A stretch of 64,000 bases of DNA from Paracoccus seriniphilus (lineage in GTDB: Bacteria > Pseudomonadota > Alphaproteobacteria > Rhodobacterales > Rhodobacteraceae): positions 2,710,501-2,774,500 of the forward strand of contig NZ_CP067129.1 of the NCBI RefSeq assembly GCF_028553745.1, read 5' to 3'. Below the pieces are notes generated by a model. It ran no database searches, was not told the DNA's origin, and saw nothing but the letters and a program-made list of their open reading frames with translations. A program made the translations under genes and the position numbers. Of the stretch, positions 54,146 to 64,000 are shown in pieces. Each line of letters opens with the position of its first letter. Positions within the stretch are counted from its first letter, which is position 1.

Positions 54146-55213
54146 TTATTGCTCCCATTCCAGTTCCTTGAAGGATGCTGTCGCATCACGCGCCACTGTT
54201 GCCTCATAGGACTGCCAGCCATTGCGCCAGGCAGACATCCCCTCAACGATCCGGGGCACGGCCCGGGACATGGGCAGCCCGTCGCGAATGGTTTCGCGCG
54301 TGGCGTCGCGCAGCGCCGTCAGAAAGTCCTGCTGTGGCTTCACCGCCTCTGGCCAGTTCTGCGCGACCCGCCCATGTCCGGGCACGATCAGCGAGGGCAC
54401 GGGTGAAGGCGGCATCTCTGCCCAGTCGATCCAGCCCAGAAGCGATCCGTCCACGACCGGCGTCAGTTCCCGGAACAACAGATCTCCGGTGAACAGCGTG
54501 CCGCTGGCGTCATCGAAAACTGTCAGATCATTGTCCGTGTGTGCAGTTCGGGCGGTGCGCAGCAACAGGCTGCGCCCGCCCAGATCTATGGTCATGCTGT
54601 CCGTCACCACCATATCGGGCAGGACGATTTCGGTGCCCAGCATCTGTTCGGCTCCGAACAGCCGCAATGCGTTGTCAAGATAGCTCTGCGCCCGCACGGC
54701 CAGCGCCCGCGGCAGCGCATGATGGGCCACGACCTGCGCCCCCGCCTCGGCAAAGACGGCGGCGCCCAGAACATGGTCGGGATGCATATGGGTCAGGATC
54801 ACATGGCTGATCGGCTTGTCCGATATCTGCCGGATGGCGGTCAGAAACTCTTGCCCCTGCCGTCGCGACACGCCGGAATCGATCACGGCGATCCGGTCCT
54901 CGCCGATCACCACGCCCAGATTGGCGATCCGCCCGTCCGCCGTATCTTCCATCTGTGCGGGACGGCCCTGATAGACATGAACCCCCGGAGCGATTTCGCG
55001 CAGGTCCAGCGCCGGAAGCTGATTGCCGGCGACACAGCGAAATCCGTTCCCCGTCAGATCCGGGTGATCCTGCAGCCAGTCCTGCGTGATTCGCGCCGCG
55101 CCATGGCGACAGTCTTCCCTTGTCGCCGCGCTGCCCGCGGGCAGCAGAACCGGCATGCACAGCGGGGAAGAAGCGGCAAAACAGGCAGTCAAAACAAGAT
55201 GAAACATGAGCAT
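54146..55213 (-). CDS. Quinoprotein relay system zinc metallohydrolase (type 2)
   Basis: An exported metallo-beta-lactamase-fold protein of about 355 residues. The signal region is FHLVLTACFAASSPLC. The zinc motif HMHPDHVLGA and later FTGDLLF and VPGHGRVA match the quinoprotein-associated metallohydrolase 2 family, which occurs with PQQ-dependent dehydrogenases. The ATG at 55213 has AGGA upstream. Divergent from pqqA with 131 nt between. Its substrate is unknown; a role in handling the PQQ dehydrogenase or electron relay is inferred from family context. Confidence 0.85.
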   Translation of the reverse strand: MLMFHLVLTACFAASSPLCMPVLLPAGSAATREDCRHGAARITQDWLQDHPDLTGNGFRCVAGNQLPALDLREIAPGVHVYQGRPAQMEDTADGRIANLGVVIGEDRIAVIDSGVSRRQGQEFLTAIRQISDKPISHVILTHMHPDHVLGAAVFAEAGAQVVAHHALPRALAVRAQSYLDNALRLFGAEQMLGTEIVLPDMVVTDSMTIDLGGRSLLLRTARTAHTDNDLTVFDDASGTLFTGDLLFRELTPVVDGSLLGWIDWAEMPPSPVPSLIVPGHGRVAQNWPEAVKPQQDFLTALRDATRETIRDGLPMSRAVPRIVEGMSAWRNGWQSYEATVARDATASFKELEWEQ

Positions 55214-55269
55214 GTTTTCCTGCATTTGCATGGAAAGACGGCGTTTGGCGCCCTGCTACCTTAGTAGTG

Positions 55270-55344: not shown

Positions 55345-55437
55345 ATGGCCTGGACCAAACCGATCCTGAAGGAAATCGCCTGCGGCATGGAAATCAACAT
55401 GTATGCCCCGGCAGAGGACGAGCCCGTACTGTTCTAA
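55345..55437 (+). CDS. pqqA: PQQ precursor peptide PqqA
   Basis: The ribosomal substrate for pyrroloquinoline quinone. Translation gives a 30-residue peptide beginning MAWTKPILKEIACGMEINMY. The conserved Glu16 and Tyr20 (ExxxY) that are cross-linked to make PQQ are exactly in place. GGAGGAG lies 7 nt upstream. It is followed by a hairpin and pqqB. Too short for most ORF callers, but its identity is clear. Confidence 0.97.
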   Translation: MAWTKPILKEIACGMEINMYAPAEDEPVLF

Positions 55438-55464
55438 GGGTTCCTTGGAAAACAGACGTGATAC

Positions 55465-55497
55465 ACGGCCCTGTCCGATCCCCTCGGGCGGGGCCGT
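55465..55497 (+). terminator. Hairpin between pqqA and pqqB
   Basis: ACGGCCC (55465-55471) pairs with GGGCCGT (55491-55497), and CCGA with TCGG inside it. It lies 27 nt after the pqqA stop. There is no U-run. It probably raises pqqA mRNA over pqqB-E, since the peptide is needed in molar excess. Confidence 0.6.
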
Positions 55498-55512
55498 CTG
55501 CCTTGGTGAAAC

Positions 55513-56394
55513 ATGAAAATCGTCATTCTGGGTGCGGCTGCCGGTGGCGGCCTGCCACAATGGAACTGTGGTTGCGCCAATTGTGACGCAGCAAGACAGG
55601 GGCGCATCCCGTCCCTGACGCAAAGCTCTGTCGCGGTCAGCGCGGATGGAACGGATTGGGCGATCCTGAACGCCTCTCCGGACATCCGCATGCAACTGGC
55701 CGCGACGCCGGCTCTGCACCCCACGGGCCCGCGTCGGATGCCCTTGCGAGCCGTGCTGGTCACGAATGGCGATATCGATCATGTCGCCGGATTGCTGACC
55801 CTGCGCGAAAGCCAACCCTTTGCGTTGTTCGCCACCGCAGCCATCCATGACGCGCTGGCCGCCAACCCGATGATGGGGGCGCTGCAGCCCGATATCGTGC
55901 CGCGCCGCACCCTCGCGCTGGATCAGACGATCGATCTGCTTCCGGGTCTGACGGCAACCCTGTTTGCCGTGCCGGGCAAGGTACCGCTGTATCAGGAAGG
56001 CGAGGTCGTCGAGACCGGGTTGATGGGCGAGACGACCGTGGGCGTGGAACTGCGCAGTGCCGAACGGCGCGCCCTTTATATCCCCGGCTGTGCCGAAATG
56101 CCGGGCTGGCTGAAGGCGCGCATTTCCGGCGCCGATGCGCTGCTGTTTGACGGTACGCTGTGGCAGGACGATGAGATGATCCGCATGGGGCTGGGCAAGA
56201 AGACCGGCCGCCGCATGGGCCATATGGCCGCACAGGACAGTATCGCCAGCCTGGCCGATGTGCCGGTGGGACAACGCCTGTTCGTTCATATGAACAATTC
56301 CAATCCGCTGACCGACCCGTCCAGCGCAGAATCCGATGAGGCCGAACGGCAGGGCTGGCGGATCGGCCGCGACGGGATGGAGATCGCCCTATGA
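55513..56394 (+). CDS. pqqB: PQQ biosynthesis protein PqqB
   Basis: A metallo-beta-lactamase-fold hydroxylase, 293 residues, that modifies the Tyr of the PqqA-derived precursor. It begins MKIVILGAAAGGGLPQWNCGC, contains NGDIDHVAGLLTLRE and the C-terminal IFVH-like FVHMNNSNP segment, and has the Cys motif CGCANC. It overlaps the pqqC start by 4 nt. Confidence 0.96.
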   Translation: MKIVILGAAAGGGLPQWNCGCANCDAARQGRIPSLTQSSVAVSADGTDWAILNASPDIRMQLAATPALHPTGPRRMPLRAVLVTNGDIDHVAGLLTLRESQPFALFATAAIHDALAANPMMGALQPDIVPRRTLALDQTIDLLPGLTATLFAVPGKVPLYQEGEVVETGLMGETTVGVELRSAERRALYIPGCAEMPGWLKARISGADALLFDGTLWQDDEMIRMGLGKKTGRRMGHMAAQDSIASLADVPVGQRLFVHMNNSNPLTDPSSAESDEAERQGWRIGRDGMEIAL

Positions 56395-57143
56395 AAGACA
56401 TGCCCGACGCCCCGCAAAGCCGCGAGGAATTCGAAGCCCGTCTGAGGGCCATTGGCGCACAGCGCTATCACGACCGCCATCCGTTCCATGCCCGCCTGCA
56501 CGGAGGAGACTGCACCCCTGACGAGGTGCGCGCCTGGGTCATCAATCGCTGGATGTATCAATCGCGCATCCCGATGAAGGATGCCGCCTTCATGAGCCGG
56601 GTCGAAGATCCCGACCTGCGCCGCGCCTGGCGCAAGCGGATCGAGGATCATGACGGCGGCAGGACCGAAGGCGGCGGGCTGCGCCGCTGGCTGGCCTTGG
56701 CCCGTGCTGTGGGGCTGGATCCCGACTATGTGGCCAGCGGAGTCGGCATCATGCCGGCCACCCGGTTCGCCGTGGAGGCCTATGTGCGCTTCGTGCGCGA
56801 CATGCCGTTGCTGGATGCGGTGGCGGCCAGCCTGACCGAATTGTTCGCGCCCAAGATCCATGCCCAGCGCATCGAAGGCCTGCTGGCCCATTACGATTTT
56901 GCGGATGACAGCAGTCTGGCCTATTTCCGCAAACGCCTGACCGAGGCCCCCGAAGACGTGAAATTCGGGCTGGATTACGTGCTGACCCATGCCGATACCC
57001 GCGAAAAGCAGGATGCGGCGGCAGCGGCGCTGATCTTCAAGACCGATGTTCTCTGGGCGCAGCTTGACGCCCTTTGGCATGGCTATGTCGAGGGCCACAT
57101 CCCCCCCGGCGCATGGCGTCCCGGTGAAGGCATGGCGACATGA
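56391..57143 (+). CDS. pqqC: Pyrroloquinoline-quinone synthase PqqC
   Basis: Cofactor-free oxidase that makes the last step, cyclisation and oxidation to PQQ. The 250-residue helical protein has RYHDRHPFHARLHGG and WVINRWMYQSRIPMKDAAF, both conserved with active-site His, Tyr and Arg residues. Start overlaps pqqB by ATGA and stop overlaps pqqD the same way. Confidence 0.97.
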   Translation: MKDMPDAPQSREEFEARLRAIGAQRYHDRHPFHARLHGGDCTPDEVRAWVINRWMYQSRIPMKDAAFMSRVEDPDLRRAWRKRIEDHDGGRTEGGGLRRWLALARAVGLDPDYVASGVGIMPATRFAVEAYVRFVRDMPLLDAVAASLTELFAPKIHAQRIEGLLAHYDFADDSSLAYFRKRLTEAPEDVKFGLDYVLTHADTREKQDAAAAALIFKTDVLWAQLDALWHGYVEGHIPPGAWRPGEGMAT

Positions 57144-57445
57144 ACAGCCCTTCCTCCCCGCTGATCGGCATGGATGACATCCCCTATCTGCCACGCGGGG
57201 TGCGGCTTCAGGACGACAGGGTGCGGGGCATTCGCGTGTTGCAGGCCCCCGAACGCGCCATACAGCTGGACCAGATCGGCGATGCCATCCTGTCCGAACT
57301 GGACGGAAGCCGCAGCCTGTCCGTGATCGCGGCTCATCTGGCCGCCCGCTATCAGGCCCCCCGGGATCAGATTGCGGCCGACATGCGCGAATTCCTGACC
57401 GGGCTGATCGAACGGCGCATGGTTTTCGTGAAGGACGCGCCATGA
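57140..57445 (+). CDS. pqqD: PQQ biosynthesis chaperone PqqD
   Basis: A 101-residue RiPP recognition element. It binds the PqqA peptide and presents it to PqqE. Sequence features are PYLPRGVRLQDDRVRG, LLxxPER-like LQAPERAIQLDQIG and LSVIAAHLAARYQAP, all PqqD-typical. Overlaps pqqC and pqqE by 4 nt. Confidence 0.95.
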   Translation: MNSPSSPLIGMDDIPYLPRGVRLQDDRVRGIRVLQAPERAIQLDQIGDAILSELDGSRSLSVIAAHLAARYQAPRDQIAADMREFLTGLIERRMVFVKDAP

Positions 57446-58575
57446 AGGACCAACCTGCCCCCCACGACATCGATGGCAACCCGGTCAGCTCTGGCCCGCC
57501 CATGGCCATGCTGGCCGAGATCACCCATCGCTGCCCGCTGGCCTGTCCCTATTGCTCGAACCCGGTCGAACTGACCCGCGCGCAGGCCGAACTTCCCGCC
57601 GAGGACTGGGTGCGGGTCTTCCGTGAGGCGGCGGACCTGGGCGTCTTGCAGGTGCATATATCGGGCGGGGAACCCGGCGCGCGCCGTGATCTGGCGCAGA
57701 TCGTCGCTGGCGCGAAGGATGCCAGGCTCTATGTGAACCTGATCACCTCGGGCATTGGTATCTCCCGTACGCGACTGATCGAACTGGATCGCGCCGGGGT
57801 CGATCATGTCCAGCTGTCCCTGCAAGGCATCCGCCCCGACATGGCCGATCGCATCAGCGGTCATCCGGGATCATGGGACAAGAAGATGGCCTTCGCCGAC
57901 TGGGTGACGGAAATCGGTTTTCCCCTGACCATCAACGCGGTGGTGCATCGCCAGAACATGGATCGCCTGCCCGACATGATCGACTTGGCCGAAGAACTGG
58001 GCGCGCGCCGGATCGAGGTCGCGACCGTGCAGTTCCACGGCTGGGCCGATCTGAACCGCGCCGCACTGATGCCAACGCGCGAACAGGCCGCCATTGCGCG
58101 ACAGGTGGTCAACGCAGCGCGGATTCGGCTGCGCGGACGCATGGTGATCGACTATGTGCCCGCCGACCATCACGCCATTTACCCCAAGGCCTGCATGGGT
58201 GGCTGGGGCAGCACCGGGCTGAATGTCGCTCCTGACGGATCTGTCCTGCCCTGCCACGCCGCACCGTCGATCCCCTGGATGCGTTTTGACAATGTCCGCA
58301 ATCGCAGCCTGTCGGACATCTGGCACCTGTCTGATGCCTTCAACGCCTTTCGCGGCACCGAATGGATGGCCGAGCCATGCCGATCATGTGAGCGGAAAAA
58401 CGTGGATTTTGGCGGCTGTCGATGTCAGGCTATGGCATTGGCGGGAGAGGCGCGGGCGACCGATCCGGTGTGCTCGAAATCGCCGCTGCATGCGCAGGTC
58501 GTCGCGCGGGCCGAGGAGGACGCGGCCACCGACAGGGATGATTTCATCTATCGGCGCATGAAAAAGGGAGGATGA
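57442..58575 (+). CDS. pqqE: Radical SAM PqqA peptide cyclase PqqE
   Basis: Forms the Glu16-Tyr20 C-C bond of PqqA. The 377-residue enzyme has the radical-SAM motif CPLACPYC, GGE motif at SGGEPGAR, and a C-terminal SPASM domain with CMGGWGSTGLNVAPDG and the Cys-rich CRSCERKNVDFGGCRC. It is translated in overlap with pqqD and followed after 3 nt by the SoxYZ-like gene, so the operon is pqqABCDE plus at least one more gene. Confidence 0.97.
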   Translation: MKDQPAPHDIDGNPVSSGPPMAMLAEITHRCPLACPYCSNPVELTRAQAELPAEDWVRVFREAADLGVLQVHISGGEPGARRDLAQIVAGAKDARLYVNLITSGIGISRTRLIELDRAGVDHVQLSLQGIRPDMADRISGHPGSWDKKMAFADWVTEIGFPLTINAVVHRQNMDRLPDMIDLAEELGARRIEVATVQFHGWADLNRAALMPTREQAAIARQVVNAARIRLRGRMVIDYVPADHHAIYPKACMGGWGSTGLNVAPDGSVLPCHAAPSIPWMRFDNVRNRSLSDIWHLSDAFNAFRGTEWMAEPCRSCERKNVDFGGCRCQAMALAGEARATDPVCSKSPLHAQVVARAEEDAATDRDDFIYRRMKKGG

Positions 58576-58578
58576 GAG

Positions 58579-59352
58579 ATGAAGGCATGGCTTTTGACCG
58601 GGCTGCTTCTGGCGTCGCCCGCATTGGCGCAGGAAAACCCGTTGCTGCCATCCGAAACCTGGGAAGATCTGCGCCAAACCGTCGTAGGCCTTGACGAGGA
58701 GCCGCCTCTGAACAGCGCGATCCTGGACCTGGAGGCACCGATGCGCGCCAATGACGCCGCCATCGTGCCCATCCGGCTGACCCAGCCGACAGATGCACCA
58801 CCGATTGACGGCCTGACGCTGGTCATTGATGAAAACCCCGCGCCGGTCGCCGCAGAATATGAATTCGGCCCGGCGCTGATGCCGCTGGATTTCGAAGTCC
58901 GAGTTCGCGTCGATGCCTATTCCGATGTTCGTGCCATTGGCGATCTTGCCGATGGCGGCAAGGTCATGTCAGGGCGTTTCGTCAAGGCATCGGGCGGATG
59001 TTCGGCTCCGGCGGGCAAGGATATGGCCGCGGTCGAACAATCCATGGGGCAGATGCGCTGGAAAAGCACCATGCAGGACGGGCGCAGCATCGGCACCCTG
59101 ATGATCCGTCATCCGATGTTTTCGGGCCTGCAGCGTGATCAGGTCACATTGCTGAATATTCCGGCGAATTTCATCGACCGGCTGCAGGTTCGCCAGGGAG
59201 ATGAGCTGCTGTTCTCGATGCAGGCGGGCATCTCGGTCAGCGAGGATCCGGTGTTCCGCTTTGCCTATGATCCCAACGGCCAGCCGATCACGGTGCATGC
59301 CGAGGATCTGGATGGCCATGTCTGGGATCAGACCTTTGGTGCAAAAGGCTGA
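58579..59352 (+). CDS. Quinoprotein dehydrogenase-associated SoxYZ-like carrier
   Basis: A secreted 257-residue protein with a signal peptide (MKAWLLTGLLLASPALA-QE). It has two lobes like a SoxY-SoxZ fusion: the first with a Cys region ASGGCSAPAGK, the second ending HAEDLDGHVWDQTFGAKG. The family is found with PQQ-dependent dehydrogenases; a sulfur/thiol or electron carrier role is suggested by SoxYZ similarity only. It lies 3 nt after pqqE, so belongs to that operon. Confidence 0.88.
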   Translation: MKAWLLTGLLLASPALAQENPLLPSETWEDLRQTVVGLDEEPPLNSAILDLEAPMRANDAAIVPIRLTQPTDAPPIDGLTLVIDENPAPVAAEYEFGPALMPLDFEVRVRVDAYSDVRAIGDLADGGKVMSGRFVKASGGCSAPAGKDMAAVEQSMGQMRWKSTMQDGRSIGTLMIRHPMFSGLQRDQVTLLNIPANFIDRLQVRQGDELLFSMQAGISVSEDPVFRFAYDPNGQPITVHAEDLDGHVWDQTFGAKG

Positions 59353-59403: not shown

Positions 59404-59742
59404 TCATTTCCGGGACTTCTTGTGGGCTTCAGCCATATGCGCAAGCTCGCCTTTGGTCACCACGCCATCCTTGTTCTGATCCAGACGGGCGAACATCTTT
59501 TCGGGGTTCATGTTCGGGCGCTTGCCACCTTCATGCTTGCCCTTGGACCGGTCGCCCTTTTTCGCTTCGCGTTGCTTGGCCCCCTGCATGAACTCTTTCT
59601 TGCTGATCTTGCCGTCCTTGTTTGCATCAAGATGCTGCATCATGGCAGCCGGGGCCATCTTCGGGCGCTGCTGCTCGGCCGATGCGACCCCCGCGAACAG
59701 AACTGACAACCCGGTCATGGCGATGATGATTTTCTTTTGCAC
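59404..59742 (-). CDS. Small exported EF-hand protein
   Basis: A 112-residue precursor with a signal peptide (MQKKIIIAMTGLSVLFAGVA, cleaved near SAEQ). It has two canonical EF-hand loops: residues 39-50 (D-x-N-K-D-G-x-I-S-x-x-E) and 88-99 (D-x-N-K-D-G-x-V-T-x-x-E), separated by a highly basic Lys/Arg/Gly linker. It should bind Ca2+ or another hard metal in the periplasm. It lacks the Pro at loop position 2, the Asp at position 9 and the close EF spacing of lanmodulin. It stands next to the PQQ genes and the two-component operon, so a link to Ca- or lanthanide-dependent quinoproteins is possible but unproven. Confidence 0.82.
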   Translation of the reverse strand: MQKKIIIAMTGLSVLFAGVASAEQQRPKMAPAAMMQHLDANKDGKISKKEFMQGAKQREAKKGDRSKGKHEGGKRPNMNPEKMFARLDQNKDGVVTKGELAHMAEAHKKSRK

Positions 59743-59867: not shown

Positions 59868-59895
59868 TTGCTTTACCTTCCACCGCCTCTACAAT
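59868..59895 (+). promoter_or_regulatory. Putative promoter of the response regulator operon
   Basis: TTGCTT (59868-59873) and TACAAT (59890-59895) with a 16-nt spacer, 61 nt upstream of the response regulator start. This is the only good sigma-70-like pair in the 214-nt divergent gap with the EF-hand gene. Confidence 0.55.
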
Positions 59896-59956: not shown

Positions 59957-60664
59957 ATGATCACCGCAGCCACAACGGCGCGCGTGTCAAATCCGCCACG
60001 ACTGTGCGCAGATCAGGTCAGAGAAATCCTGATCGTGGATGATCATCCACTCATGTGTGACGCGCTGGCGCTGACATTGAAGATCAGTTTCGGACTGAAA
60101 CATGTCCGTACCGCACGCAGCCTTGCCTCGGCCATCGAACAGATCAAGGCGCAAGGGGCCCCTGACGCCGTCATCCTGGATTTGAACCTGCCCGATGCGC
60201 GCGGATCCGAAGGGATCGTCGCGCTGCGCCGGCAACTGCCCGACGTGCCCATCACGATGATTTCCGCCGATCTGGAGGCGGCAATGATTTCGGCGGCCAT
60301 GGCGGCTGGCGCTCAGGGATATATAAGCAAATCGCTCAGCCGCGAGGCTCTGGTCGACAGCCTGCGGCGCATGTGGGATGGCGAGCATGTCACCCCCGAG
60401 GGCTATCGCCCCGAAGAGGCAGATGCCGATGAACAGGCCAAGGCGGAACTGATGCGCCGTTTCGCCTCGCTGACACCGCAGCAGATGCGCATCCTGCGGC
60501 TGATCTGCCAGGGCAAGGCCAACAAGGAGATCAGCTACGAACTGTCGATCGCCGAGGCGACCGTCAAGACGCATATCACCGCGATCATGTCCAAGATCAA
60601 CGCACGCCGCAGGACTCAGGCAGTCCTGCTGGCAAATTCCATCCGGCTGTTCGAGGCTGGTTGA
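59957..60664 (+). CDS. LuxR-family response regulator (FlhR/AgmR-like)
   Basis: A 235-residue NarL/FixJ-type regulator. The receiver (ILIVDDHPLMCDALALTL; phospho-acceptor Asp in AVILDLNLPDARG; Lys in GYISKSLS) is followed by a LuxR HTH (LTPQQMRILRLICQGKANKE, then SIAEATVKTHITAIMSKINA). It resembles regulators that control methanol/formaldehyde or ethanol oxidation genes (FlhR, AgmR/ErbR). The ATG at 59957 follows GGGAGGAATAACC. Its stop overlaps the FIST gene start (TGATG), so the response regulator, FIST and kinase genes form one operon. Confidence 0.92.
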   Translation: MITAATTARVSNPPRLCADQVREILIVDDHPLMCDALALTLKISFGLKHVRTARSLASAIEQIKAQGAPDAVILDLNLPDARGSEGIVALRRQLPDVPITMISADLEAAMISAAMAAGAQGYISKSLSREALVDSLRRMWDGEHVTPEGYRPEEADADEQAKAELMRRFASLTPQQMRILRLICQGKANKEISYELSIAEATVKTHITAIMSKINARRRTQAVLLANSIRLFEAG

Positions 60665-61839
60665 TGAATACCGGCCTGATTGCAAAGGAGGGTGCCATCG
60701 GGCCGGTGGCTGTGCAGGCCGACCGCGACGCAGACGACGCTCAGGAGTCTCTTTTGGCCGGCCTGCGCGGCATCGATCCCGCATTGGTGCTGCTGTTCAC
60801 CGACGATCAGACCCGGCTGCGCGATCTGGCAAGGGGGCTGCGCGACGCACTGCCGCCCGGCTGTCTTGTCGCAGGCTGTTCCTCGGCCGGGGAGATCGGG
60901 CCTTGCGGCTATACCAGCCAGAGCGTGCTGGCCATCGGATTTCCGGCTTCCGAATTCCGCGCCCATGCCCTGCAGTTGTCCAATCTGTCGGGGCTGCCGG
61001 TCTCGGAATGGATGACGGCACTACGCCGGATGCACAAGGATTTCTGTCCCGATCCGGATCGGTCGTTGTTCGGCCTGTTGCTGGTGGACGGGCTGGCCGG
61101 ACAGGAGGACGCGCTGGTCGCCACCATCGACGCGGCGCTGCCCTCGGTTCCCACGCTTGGCGGCTCGGCCGGGGACGGGCTGGAGTTCGGACATACCTCG
61201 CTGCTGCTGAATGACGAGATCATTTCGAATGCAGCCATATTCCTGATGGTCGAGACCGGCTTGACCATCAGCGAGGTCACCTTTGCCCATTTCAGCCCCA
61301 CCGCGACGCGCGCCGTCGTCACCGCCGCCCTGCCCGACAAGCGCCGGATCCTGGAACTGAACGCCGAACCCGCCGCCGAGGAATACGCCCGTATCATCGG
61401 CGTCCCCCAGGATCAGCTGACCCCGACCGAATTTGCCCGCCATCCGCTGTTGCTGCGCATGGGACGACGCCACCATGTCCGCGCCATCAGCGCCATCACC
61501 GAGGATGGCGGGCTGTCGCTGATGTCTGCAATCGACACCGGCACCGTGCTGACGCTGGGGCGGGCCGACGATCTGACACAGGGATTCGCCGATGCGCTGG
61601 ACGATCTGCCCCATGCGCCGCTGATGGTGCTGGGCTTCGACTGCATTCTGCGACGGCTGGCACTGGAGCGCGCGGGACTCAGCGACCGGATGGGCGATCT
61701 GTTTGCCAAATATCGCGTGGCGGGTTTCAACACCTATGGCGAACAGCACAGCGGCATGCATGTGAATCAGACCTTTGTCGGACTGGCCTTCATGGCGCCG
61801 GACAAGGCTGCGCAGACTGGCAATCCCGATGCTGCGTGA
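60664..61839 (+). CDS. FIST-domain protein, candidate sensor for the adjacent kinase
   Basis: A 391-residue soluble protein with FIST N- and C-terminal domains. The N-terminal FIST domain includes LVAGCSSAGEIGPCGY (near residue 68-83) and PTLGGSAGDGLEF, and the C-terminal half has GFDCILRRLAL followed by FNTYGEQHSGMHVNQTFVG. These Gly-rich turns are typical. FIST domains sense small molecules; NosP, a FIST-type heme protein, senses NO and regulates a co-encoded kinase. Start ATG at 60664 shares a base with the preceding stop; its end overlaps the kinase start by 11 nt. Heme binding or ligand is not shown by sequence. Confidence 0.88.
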   Translation: MNTGLIAKEGAIGPVAVQADRDADDAQESLLAGLRGIDPALVLLFTDDQTRLRDLARGLRDALPPGCLVAGCSSAGEIGPCGYTSQSVLAIGFPASEFRAHALQLSNLSGLPVSEWMTALRRMHKDFCPDPDRSLFGLLLVDGLAGQEDALVATIDAALPSVPTLGGSAGDGLEFGHTSLLLNDEIISNAAIFLMVETGLTISEVTFAHFSPTATRAVVTAALPDKRRILELNAEPAAEEYARIIGVPQDQLTPTEFARHPLLLRMGRRHHVRAISAITEDGGLSLMSAIDTGTVLTLGRADDLTQGFADALDDLPHAPLMVLGFDCILRRLALERAGLSDRMGDLFAKYRVAGFNTYGEQHSGMHVNQTFVGLAFMAPDKAAQTGNPDAA

Positions 61840-63151
61840 GGACGATTCGGCCGCGCGCAAGGTCGAAAAGCTGACCCGCATCAACCAAGTGCTGATCGAC
61901 CGTATCGACCGGCTGGAAGAATCGCGCGGCTCGGCCTGGTCGATGTTTCAGGCCGCCGTCGCACTGGAACAAGAGGTTCTGACCCGCACCCGCCAGTTGG
62001 AACAGGCCATGGCCGATCTGTCACAGCGCAACCGTGAACTGGCCGTGGCCCGCGCGGCCGCCGAAGAGGCCAACCGCTCGAAGACCCGGTTCCTGCGTGC
62101 AGCCAGCCACGATCTGCTGCAACCGCTTTCGGCCGCGCGGCTGTTCCTGTCGGCATTGACCGATACGCCGATGGATCCCCAGCAACTGGAGTTGACCGAC
62201 CGGCTGTCAGGTGCCTTTGAATCGGTGGAACAACTGATGCATGCGGTATTGGATATTTCCCGGCTGGACAGCCAGCGGATCGAGTTCAACCGCCAGCCGG
62301 TGCCGCTGCACGATCTGTTTCGCAAGCTTGCGGCCGAATATGCCCCGCTGGCCGAGGCCAAGAACCTGAAACTGTCCTTCGTCCAGACCGATGCCGTCGT
62401 CGAAAGCGATCCGGTGTTCCTGCGACGCATTGCGCAGAACCTGATATCGAATGCGATCAAATATACCAGCCGCGGGGGTGTCGTGGTCGGAGTGCGCCGG
62501 CAGCGAAACACCTGCTGGCTCTGCATCTATGACACCGGCGCGGGAATACCTGCCGTGGATCGCAACCGCATCTTCGAGGAATTCCAGCGTCTCGGCCATG
62601 ATTCCGGCACGCCGGGGATGGGGCTGGGCCTGTCCATCGTGCGCCGGGCCTGCAACAAGCTGGGCCATCCGATAAGCCTGAATTCCGAAGCCATGCGCGG
62701 CACCGTCTTCAAGGTCGGCCTGCCCCCCGCCGAGAGCGACCACTGCCCCCGCCCCGCCGTCAAGGATCTGCTGACCACCACGTTGCGCGGGCGCGTAGCC
62801 CTGATCATCGAGAATGACGAAGCCATGCGGCGAGGCTATGAGCTGACACTGCAGGATCATCTGGGCATGGTGGCGCGGCTTTGCGGCAGCACCGCCGAAG
62901 CGGTTGCAACCATGGGCGAAGAACCCCCCGAGGTGATCATCGCGGATTACCACCTGGAACATGGCGATACCGGCGTTGCCGCGATCGAGGCCCTGCGCTC
63001 GCGGTTGAACCAGCCGGTTCCCGCAATCATGGTCACCGCCCATCGCGATCCCGATATCGCGCGCACCTGTGCCGCCATGGGCGTGCATCTGATGGAAAAG
63101 CCGCTGCGTCCGTCCGAACTGGGAGAGACATTGGCACGGGTTCTGGGCTGA
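61829..63151 (+). CDS. Soluble hybrid histidine kinase (FlhS/NahK-like)
   Basis: A 440-residue kinase without signal peptide or membrane span. The N-terminal coiled coil (about residues 10-80) leads to the phospho-acceptor His94 in RAASHDLLQPLSAARLFL. The catalytic domain has NLISNAIKYT, DTGAGI and GMGLGLSIVRRA. A C-terminal receiver follows (phospho-acceptor Asp in VIIADYHLEHGDTG). No PAS or GAF domain precedes the His. The ATG at 61829 overlaps the FIST stop, so its input may come through the FIST protein. Similar to FlhS of Paracoccus, which controls C1 oxidation. Confidence 0.92.
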   Translation: MLREDDSAARKVEKLTRINQVLIDRIDRLEESRGSAWSMFQAAVALEQEVLTRTRQLEQAMADLSQRNRELAVARAAAEEANRSKTRFLRAASHDLLQPLSAARLFLSALTDTPMDPQQLELTDRLSGAFESVEQLMHAVLDISRLDSQRIEFNRQPVPLHDLFRKLAAEYAPLAEAKNLKLSFVQTDAVVESDPVFLRRIAQNLISNAIKYTSRGGVVVGVRRQRNTCWLCIYDTGAGIPAVDRNRIFEEFQRLGHDSGTPGMGLGLSIVRRACNKLGHPISLNSEAMRGTVFKVGLPPAESDHCPRPAVKDLLTTTLRGRVALIIENDEAMRRGYELTLQDHLGMVARLCGSTAEAVATMGEEPPEVIIADYHLEHGDTGVAAIEALRSRLNQPVPAIMVTAHRDPDIARTCAAMGVHLMEKPLRPSELGETLARVLG

Positions 63152-63242: not shown

Positions 63243-63860
63243 ATGAGACGCCTATTCGCAATCATGCTGGTATCAATGCTGGCGGGGCTTGCCAGCGGGC
63301 CTGTGGTGGCGGGCGAGGCGGGCGATATCGTCTTTGCCAATCGGGGCCCATGGTCGCTGCCTGACAGTTCGATCGCCTGGACCGTGAATGTCGCGGGCCC
63401 CGAGGCACCCGGTTTCCTGCCAGTGCATGATGGGTCGGTGACGCTGGCGGAAATCATCGACCCGTCAGATCAGCAACCCGCGCTGCAACTGATCCGCAAG
63501 ACGGATGCACGGAGCCAGAAGATCGGTCCCTTTCCGATCTCGGGCGGCGATCCGGTGCTGACCTTTTTCCTTGAACAGACCTCGCGCGACATGGCGCGGC
63601 TGACCGGCGGAAGCCCGTTCTACATCCGCAACCGCATCAAGGACGCGGTCTTTCGCGGCGGGCAGATCGCACGGGATGGCGATTCCGTCGTCGCGACATT
63701 CCAACCTTTCGCTGCCGATCCCAATGCCGCGAAGATGAACGGGTTCCAGACACTGAAGCTGACCTTCGTGCTGGATGATCCGGCCGCGCCCATCCGCGAG
63801 CTGCGCGCCGAGACAGAAGGCGATATCCCCGGCTATCTCAACCACATGGTTCTGCAATGA
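63243..63860 (+). CDS. Exported protein of unknown function in the kinase operon
   Basis: A 205-residue precursor with a clear signal peptide (MRRLFAIMLVSMLAGLASG, cleavage near VVA-GE). The rest is mostly beta-strand-like, with RGPWSLPDSSIAW, SGGDPVLTFFLEQ and PFYIRNRIKDAVF segments; I do not recognise a domain. The ATG at 63243 follows GGAGGAGAGG, while the frame to 63171 has no ribosome site. Its stop overlaps the next start (ATGA). Placement suggests a periplasmic role in quinoprotein-linked oxidation or its sensing; function unknown. Confidence 0.8.
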   Translation: MRRLFAIMLVSMLAGLASGPVVAGEAGDIVFANRGPWSLPDSSIAWTVNVAGPEAPGFLPVHDGSVTLAEIIDPSDQQPALQLIRKTDARSQKIGPFPISGGDPVLTFFLEQTSRDMARLTGGSPFYIRNRIKDAVFRGGQIARDGDSVVATFQPFAADPNAAKMNGFQTLKLTFVLDDPAAPIRELRAETEGDIPGYLNHMVLQ

Positions 63861-64000
63861 AGAAACGGCTTGCGACGGCCTGCCTGGCGCTTGCGGCGGC
63901 GACCCCGGGCTGGGGTCAGGCGGTGAATGACTATCCGACCAATGCGCGGGCAGAATATGTCTTTACCTGCATGGCAACCAATGGCCAGAACCGCGCCATG
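63857..64000 (+). CDS. Exported protein of unknown function, N-terminal fragment
   Basis: 48 residues are visible before the right edge. A signal peptide (MKKRLATACLALAAATPGWG) is followed by a short segment with YVFTCMATNGQ. I recall similar small exported proteins with this segment in methylotrophic alphaproteobacteria, but no function is known to me. Its start overlaps the preceding gene by ATGA, so the two are translationally coupled. Confidence 0.7.
   Translation, partial: MKKRLATACLALAAATPGWGQAVNDYPTNARAEYVFTCMATNGQNRAM

Follow-up and report, generated by a model that had tools for sequence, protein, structure and literature searches.

We describe a three-gene operon in a 64,000-nt stretch of the Paracoccus seriniphilus genome (the window: contig NZ_CP067129.1 of assembly GCF_028553745.1, forward-strand positions 2,710,501 to 2,774,500) that encodes a response regulator (RR), a FIST protein, and a soluble hybrid histidine kinase. 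We think it probable that this operon is a FlhRS/AfdRS-type system in which FIST serves as a separate input to the kinase and reads methanol and formaldehyde oxidation. Two parts of this reading are held more firmly: FIST and the kinase very likely act together as a two-protein sensor, and control by the operon of genes for one-carbon (C1) metabolism and pyrroloquinoline quinone (PQQ) is likely. A preliminary description of the locus had proposed FIST as a detached kinase sensor through which a diffusible ligand such as nitric oxide (NO) would gate alcohol or C1 oxidation; the operon structure and the two-protein sensor stand, while the NO gate does not stand as stated and is retained below as a rival.

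The three genes are coupled by overlaps that can be read directly from the sequence, as had been described: the RR stop and the FIST ATG share 1 nt (TGATG, 60662-60666), and the FIST gene ends 11 nt into the kinase gene (61829-61839). We took ATG 60664 as the FIST start, the TTG at 60661 chosen by the open-reading-frame tool being an alternative. By Pfam, RR comprises REC and GerE (LuxR-type helix-turn-helix) domains, the FIST protein FIST_N and FIST_C (PF08495 and PF10442, both over cut-off), and the kinase HisKA, HATPase_c, and REC. The preliminary description had seen neither a membrane segment nor a sensor domain in the kinase, and indeed Pfam gives no PAS or other sensor domain and the hydropathy profile no membrane-like segment (top 19-residue value 0.95).

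Scores against family models fall below the cut-offs in all three cases: 176.2 bits for RR against its nearest NCBIfam model, ErdR (NF041830; cut-off 390), 321.4 bits for FIST against NosP (NF041558; curated cut-off 450), and 343.9 bits for the kinase against NahK/ErcS (NF041832; cut-off 400). The NosP cut-off is reached in none of 150 genomes sampled from the family of the window (taken as Rhodobacteraceae, nearly one per genus). On these scores FIST is predicted to be a NosP relative below the NosP cut-off. We class the operon with the FlhRS/AfdRS-type systems and its FIST as an auxiliary sensor of the NosP family, rather than as NosP proper. The named best-scoring FIST relatives are Paracoccus proteins, save one Alphaproteobacteria metagenome-assembled genome, and databases give several relatives the name GfdT; by sequence, no PDB match to FIST was found at E up to 1.

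The arrangement is conserved across 80 named loci selected for their match to FIST (the 80 best among at least 359), spanning Paracoccus, other Rhodobacteraceae, Sinorhizobium, and others. FIST is immediately preceded by RR in 79/80 and immediately followed by the kinase in 78/80; the three misses are all at contig ends. The commonest gaps are -1 and -4 between RR and FIST and -4 and -11 between FIST and kinase, counts in which overlaps are favored because gene starts were picked nearest the preceding stop. Since these loci were selected by FIST, they are uninformative on how often FIST is absent, and whole genomes were used for that purpose.

FIST and the kinase are further linked by a coil at the N terminus of the kinase, which is new here. 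Over the first ~80 residues the window kinase matches the PAS-bearing kinase of a second RR-FIST-kinase locus in the same genome with a score of 116 (500 shuffles: 31.5 +/- 5.5, maximum 52), and scores are only 27-50 for the 12 kinases that stand second in tandem at related loci. All 30 kinases behind FIST from a phylum-wide search (L085-L114) beat their shuffles in a comparison whose reading frame was picked by the coil score itself, the weakest being L108 (66 vs 30 +/- 4). A profile built from 38 stretches of FIST-partner kinases was then run on the 150 family genomes (E 1e-8, with up to 36 candidates scored in each) and on 249 genomes of Pseudomonadota (E 1e-6, up to 22 candidates in each). 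Within the family, all 69 coil matches lie directly behind FIST, 17-107 bases from the FIST match, and the coil is present at 69/70 FIST loci, the exception being in genome G039. Across Pseudomonadota, 52/52 coil matches lie beside FIST, and 52 of 66 FIST matches (at least about 238 bits) have the coil; 11 of the 14 without it come from one family. Kinases behind NosP equivalogs carry the coil as well. Weaker coils elsewhere could escape, because the profile was built from FIST partners.

As coil matches sit only behind FIST, and nearly all FIST loci of the family have the coil, the simplest reading is that this segment of ~75 residues is likely the site at which FIST docks. With the conserved pairing, this strengthens the detached-sensor proposal, and FIST becomes the only recognized input of the window kinase because that kinase keeps the coil without a PAS domain. 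Because the coil is a marker of FIST-partner kinases in much of Pseudomonadota, it offers a way to find and map further FIST circuits.

In a FIST tree (4 of the 80 loci yielded no full kinase, and the broken L069 and duplicate L002 were left out of the alignment), one FIST clade holds the partners of all 49 kinases of 420-479 aa, and its sister clade those of all 27 of 735-764 aa; PAS was checked by Pfam in the window kinase and its genome's own second kinase, the others being judged by length. Although the short kinases form one clade in the 80 loci, short open frames of about 450-520 also stand behind FIST outside them, and we therefore make no wider claim of a single origin for PAS-less kinases.

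The genomic setting points to C1 oxidation. As the preliminary description had noted, the operon stands beside PQQ genes, with pqqABCDE upstream. At least one PQQ or C1 gene is matched in the flanks of 64/80 loci (tblastn E 1e-6, at least 45 bits), with pqq genes in 27/80 and gfa in 14/80, the latter in the order gfa-RR-FIST-kinase in several Rhodobacteraceae. On a Sinorhizobium plasmid, the 15 kb after the block contain an annotated SoxYZ-like carrier, S-(hydroxymethyl)glutathione dehydrogenase, and fghA, together with a PQQ methanol/ethanol dehydrogenase and its cytochrome; flhA, xoxF, xoxG, and xoxJ are our own labels on those genes, not annotations.

Co-occurrence across the 150 family genomes separates this setting from denitrification. 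Tables are given as both / FIST only / other only / neither, with p-values uncorrected and kinship ignored. Quinoprotein alcohol dehydrogenase (ADH), gfa, and nirK were counted above curated cut-off only (raw tallies at E 0.001: 149, 71, and 79 of 150), and nirS at E <1e-90 (raw tally 60). Strong FIST matches to the NosP model occur in 57/150 genomes (raw 59/150; five weak partial places were dropped, two being the sole matches of G004 and G066). FIST goes with quinoprotein ADH (40/17/4/89, odds ratio 52, p 2e-18), with pqqC (27/30/5/88, odds ratio 15.8, p 2e-9), and with gfa (14/43/1/92, odds ratio 30, p 5e-6). Window-type operons, marked by the neighboring gene d113 near FIST on the same contig (19 genomes; within ~4 kb, or ~10 kb in G020), give odds ratios of 73 with ADH and 364 with gfa (14/5/1/130). 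An absence of FIST from most relatives with pqq, which would have told against the preliminary description, was not seen: among 32 pqqC-bearing genomes, 27 have a strong FIST and 17 a window-type operon.

By the same measure, FIST is independent of nirS or nirK (22/35/27/66, odds ratio 1.5, p 0.28; 1.06 and 1.15 within quinoprotein-positive and -negative genomes), with odds ratios of 2.4 (p 0.04) for nirS alone and 1.7 (p 0.13) for NnrS; the positive control, nir against NnrS, gives 12.9. Quinoprotein/C1 metabolism, rather than denitrification, is the main correlate of FIST in the family. On the nir and NnrS tables, NO is not the main correlate, and a weak link remains.

These tables bear directly on the proposal that FIST is a heme-based NO sensor like NosP and that NO gates the kinase, and hence alcohol or C1 oxidation. 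We consider this unlikely, and NO as default ligand was lowered by the co-occurrence tests to the place of a rival. The 321-bit NosP-family match that suggests it lies below the NosP cut-off, and the NnrS of the window genome is accompanied by no nirK match and no credible nirS match, the sole cytochrome-d1 match standing at 6.7e-4. Reviews and papers, in the parts available, report that NosP proteins control kinases on NO in P. aeruginosa, Legionella, and Burkholderia; the window regulator, however, is a DNA-binding protein and not a cyclic di-GMP (c-di-GMP) enzyme.

Conserved residues were compared in 83 window-clade, 19 second-type, and 18 NosP-equivalog sequences. C72, D142, E148, R273, R330, E360, H366, and N368 are invariant in all three groups and C327 nearly so, a set of polar residues that suggests a putative binding site. 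The window (C1) clade is marked by F325 (100%), H362 (100%), and V372 (96%), and at these positions it is unlike the NosP equivalogs: position 325 is mostly C in the second type (95%) and in NosP equivalogs (89%), position 372 is T in 100% of both, and position 362 is mixed in the second type (commonest V, 26%) and F in 78% of NosP equivalogs.

Given that FIST senses, a formaldehyde-type ligand is possible, NO improbable, and some other ligand not far from an even chance; formaldehyde-type and heme-NO ligands both stay as candidates. A more specific proposal, which we regard as doubtful, is that the C1-subclade FIST is the sensor still missing from accounts of how FlhRS/AfdRS respond to formaldehyde. 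In this proposal, a Cys/His site made up of C72, C327, and H366 with the clade-specific F325 and H362 would read formaldehyde or S-hydroxymethylglutathione and signal through the docking coil to the sensorless kinase, NosP-type NO sensing being a sister use of the module.

In the mechanism that we favor, FIST would dock on the N-terminal coil of the kinase, as co-occurrence strongly indicates, and the docked FIST would set the autokinase level. The kinase would hand phosphate to the LuxR-type regulator, directly or via its own receiver domain, and the regulator would turn on methanol/formaldehyde oxidation and probably PQQ synthesis, as gene settings and the published genetics of FlhRS/AfdRS suggest. 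Most likely, the signal comes from C1 oxidation, as a product or a state of it (formaldehyde or its glutathione adduct, for example), and it may be read by FIST residues in the 325-372 stretch.

Several observations weigh against this reading. C72, C327, and H366 are equally conserved in NosP equivalogs, so that the conserved Cys/His residues do not favor formaldehyde over heme-NO. Window-type FIST leans weakly to nir (odds ratio 3.4, p 0.018; 2.8, p 0.13 within ADH-positive genomes) and to NnrS (3.3, p 0.028), although d113, a neighbor and, as far as known, no NO sensor, leans to nir equally (3.7, p 0.006). Much of the coil pattern would also be expected if FIST and kinase had a common ancestry and were inherited together. 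No C1/PQQ gene is matched in the flanking stretch examined of 16/80 loci, and the gfa-flhA-fghA-xoxF-xoxG-xoxJ cluster of the window genome (L117) lies far from the operon. In 16 quinoprotein-ADH-negative genomes, the stretches fetched around FIST2-type loci hold no C1/PQQ match; the neighbors are CO dehydrogenase-like in 8/16, ExaC in 1/16, and neither in the rest. These loci rule out a C1-only role for all FIST proteins, and the FIST family is thus not C1-specific. Lastly, a R. sphaeroides rfdT mutant is described as leaving adhI expression unchanged (PMC4776306), so that FIST may matter little in that organism or act elsewhere.

The rfdT result also agrees with a second rival, in which FIST is an accessory of the kinase (in assembly, stability, or phosphatase control) that senses nothing, the signal entering elsewhere. 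G004 and G076 fit this proposal in that xoxF-type genes, d113, and the block's 205-aa gene are retained there, and the stretch read contains no match to FIST, RR, or the kinase; the pqq genes are in the same stretch in G004 and on another contig in G076. In G049 the stretch read has only a weak kinase match (25%). We nevertheless judge it improbable: the PAS-less kinase would be left with no other recognized input, the near-invariant polar residues suggest a binding site, and reviews report that FIST domains of relatives bind NO and/or heme.

The nearest published parallels, which the preliminary description had not named, are the formaldehyde-responsive systems of the same genus or family, FlhR-orf2-FlhS of P. 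denitrificans and AfdR-AfdT-AfdS and RfdR-RfdT-RfdS of R. sphaeroides, described in the same order of regulator, middle gene, and kinase. FlhR we take to be of the LuxR-type class, and the GerE domain of the window RR places it with such DNA-binding regulators. According to the accessible accounts, the flhR-orf2-flhS, afdRTS, and rfdRTS operons control formaldehyde genes (PMC4776306, PMC8879981); in P. denitrificans, FlhRS is formaldehyde-responsive and governs both the formation and the removal of formaldehyde, and FlhR binds DNA (PMC8879981). These systems are described as controlling glutathione-dependent formaldehyde and methanol oxidation, a role that the window operon would share, and a FlhS homologue is listed for P. 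aminophilus (PMC3925955). The window operon adjoins pqqABCDE, unlike the descriptions of FlhRS/AfdRS, and orthology to these proteins is proposed from gene order, genus, and the database name GfdT.

Formaldehyde sensing by FlhRS and AfdRS has been an open question since 2001-2004. In the available text of PMC4776306, AfdRS and RfdRS are said to be without conserved cysteines, the mode of sensing to be unknown, and the role of the middle gene to be unclear; the reviews, in the parts available, do not use the term FIST for that gene and give it no clear role. FIST would supply the conserved cysteines, though NosP has the same residues. The sensing question becomes testable once the middle gene is recognized as a FIST partner whose Cys/His residues are near-invariant and with which a docking coil co-occurs. 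No paper linking FIST to formaldehyde was found among the matches listed, and the XoxF literature checked for regulator terms held nothing on an RR-FIST-kinase operon.

A second set of parallels comprises NosP-NahK/ErcS' of P. aeruginosa (PA1975-PA1976) and PP_2663-PedS1 of P. putida, in which, as in the window, FIST stands directly before a soluble hybrid kinase. The preliminary description had pointed out this likeness, and a table in PMC12997753 does place nosP, nahK/ercS', and erbR of P. aeruginosa beside exa/pqq, near PQQ alcohol-oxidation genes. The window differs in that its FIST and kinase fall below the family cut-offs, the kinase is without PAS domains, and the regulator is in the same operon. 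For the P. putida FIST-kinase pair, the same ped review draws a link to NO from homology and also allows alcohols (PMC12997753), and a c-di-GMP review states that FIST may bind NO and/or heme by a little-known mechanism (PMC8846402). Burkholderia NosR-NosP-NosK is described as the same three-gene operon of RR, FIST, and histidine kinase, its NosP inhibiting the kinase, more so with an NO donor; NosK has no recognized sensor domain and ~130 residues ahead of its DHp domain, and NosR carries a degenerate HD-GYP c-di-GMP domain, whereas the window regulator has a LuxR-type helix-turn-helix (PMC12570481).

Features of the operon and its surroundings in the window
Feature	Position	Strand	Basis or remark
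Quinoprotein relay system zinc metallohydrolase 2	54146-55231	-	TIGR04559 over cut-off
pqqA-pqqB-pqqC-pqqD-pqqE (PQQ biosynthesis)	55345-58575	+	pqqC by TIGR02111
pqqA	55345-55437	+	
Quinoprotein dehydrogenase-associated SoxYZ-like carrier	58579-59352	+	TIGR04557 over cut-off
Small protein with EF-hands and signal-like start, between SoxYZ-like carrier and regulator	59404-59742		
Sigma-70-like promoter elements TTGCTT, 16-nt spacer, TACAAT	59868-59895	+	Alignment read by eye
RR, REC + LuxR-type helix-turn-helix, FlhR/AfdR-like	59957-60664	+	REC Asp in LDLNLPD; domain and family models
FIST protein, 391 aa, GfdT/AfdT/RfdT/orf2-like, NosP family	60664-61839	+	Domain and family models
Soluble hybrid histidine kinase, 440 aa, coil-DHp-CA-REC, FlhS/AfdS-like, NahK/ErcS family	61829-63151	+	Domain models
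Kinase N-terminal coil, ~residues 11-81, common to FIST-partner kinases; putative FIST docking site	61859-62071	+	
Probably secreted protein, 205 aa, without known family, conserved in block	63243-63860	+	
d113, start of probably secreted 113-aa four-cysteine protein	63857-64000	+	Coding ends ~64195, beyond the window

In the upstream cluster, only pqqC is named by a model; pqqA, pqqB, pqqD, and pqqE are presumably as labeled, from sequence and gene order. The EF-hand protein had no match of at least 45 bits among those listed for related loci. Upstream of RR, the promoter-like elements are partly conserved by eye in an alignment of 30 sequences, and no regulator-binding motif common to these regions was seen besides them.

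The two probably secreted genes downstream, absent from the preliminary description as was the second RR-FIST-kinase locus, are co-directional with the operon and part of the conserved block, being matched in 73/80 and 74/80 loci (in L083, at L083:1743-2360 and L083:2357-2698). Neither encoded protein belongs to a known family, and both go with XoxF/gfa genomes. The d113 protein has four conserved cysteines and the motif NDYPT, and occurs in 22/150 family genomes; 21 of these carry quinoprotein ADH, and every one of the 15 genomes with gfa has d113. Besides standing in window-type operons, it lies near the xoxF-type genes of G004 and G076. Databases label it hypothetical, secreted, or HdeA/HdeB family, with one ill-fitting lysyl-tRNA synthetase label.

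The second RR-FIST-kinase locus of the window genome encodes a FIST scoring 347.9 bits against NF041558 and a PAS-bearing kinase of 750 aa; a PQQ alcohol dehydrogenase, a PedF-type cytochrome, and a CXXCW protein are encoded nearby. At L034, L039-L045, L047, and L049-L051, a tandem second hybrid kinase without the coil stands behind the FIST-partner kinase.

One further ADH-negative FIST genome, G042, is the 17th such genome and lies outside the 16 FIST2-type loci examined: it has a window-type locus (G042:C16:455065-467045) and no quinoprotein ADH over cut-off, its pqqC match is split in two, and its gfa match has an internal stop, possibly a decaying C1 pathway with the regulator still present. 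An ExaC-type acetaldehyde dehydrogenase lies near FIST at L122:11699-13240 (over cut-off), with matches of 75-78% at L025 and L026. In the eight quinoprotein-negative genomes with CO dehydrogenase-like neighbors (L123, L125, L127, L129, L131, L133, L134, and L135), coxG-, coxS-, and coxL-like genes and a fourth shared gene flank the second-type RR-FIST-kinase locus. Carbon monoxide (CO) is a classic heme ligand, and these genes are of the CO dehydrogenase-like molybdenum hydroxylase type, the single large subunit scanned falling below that cut-off.

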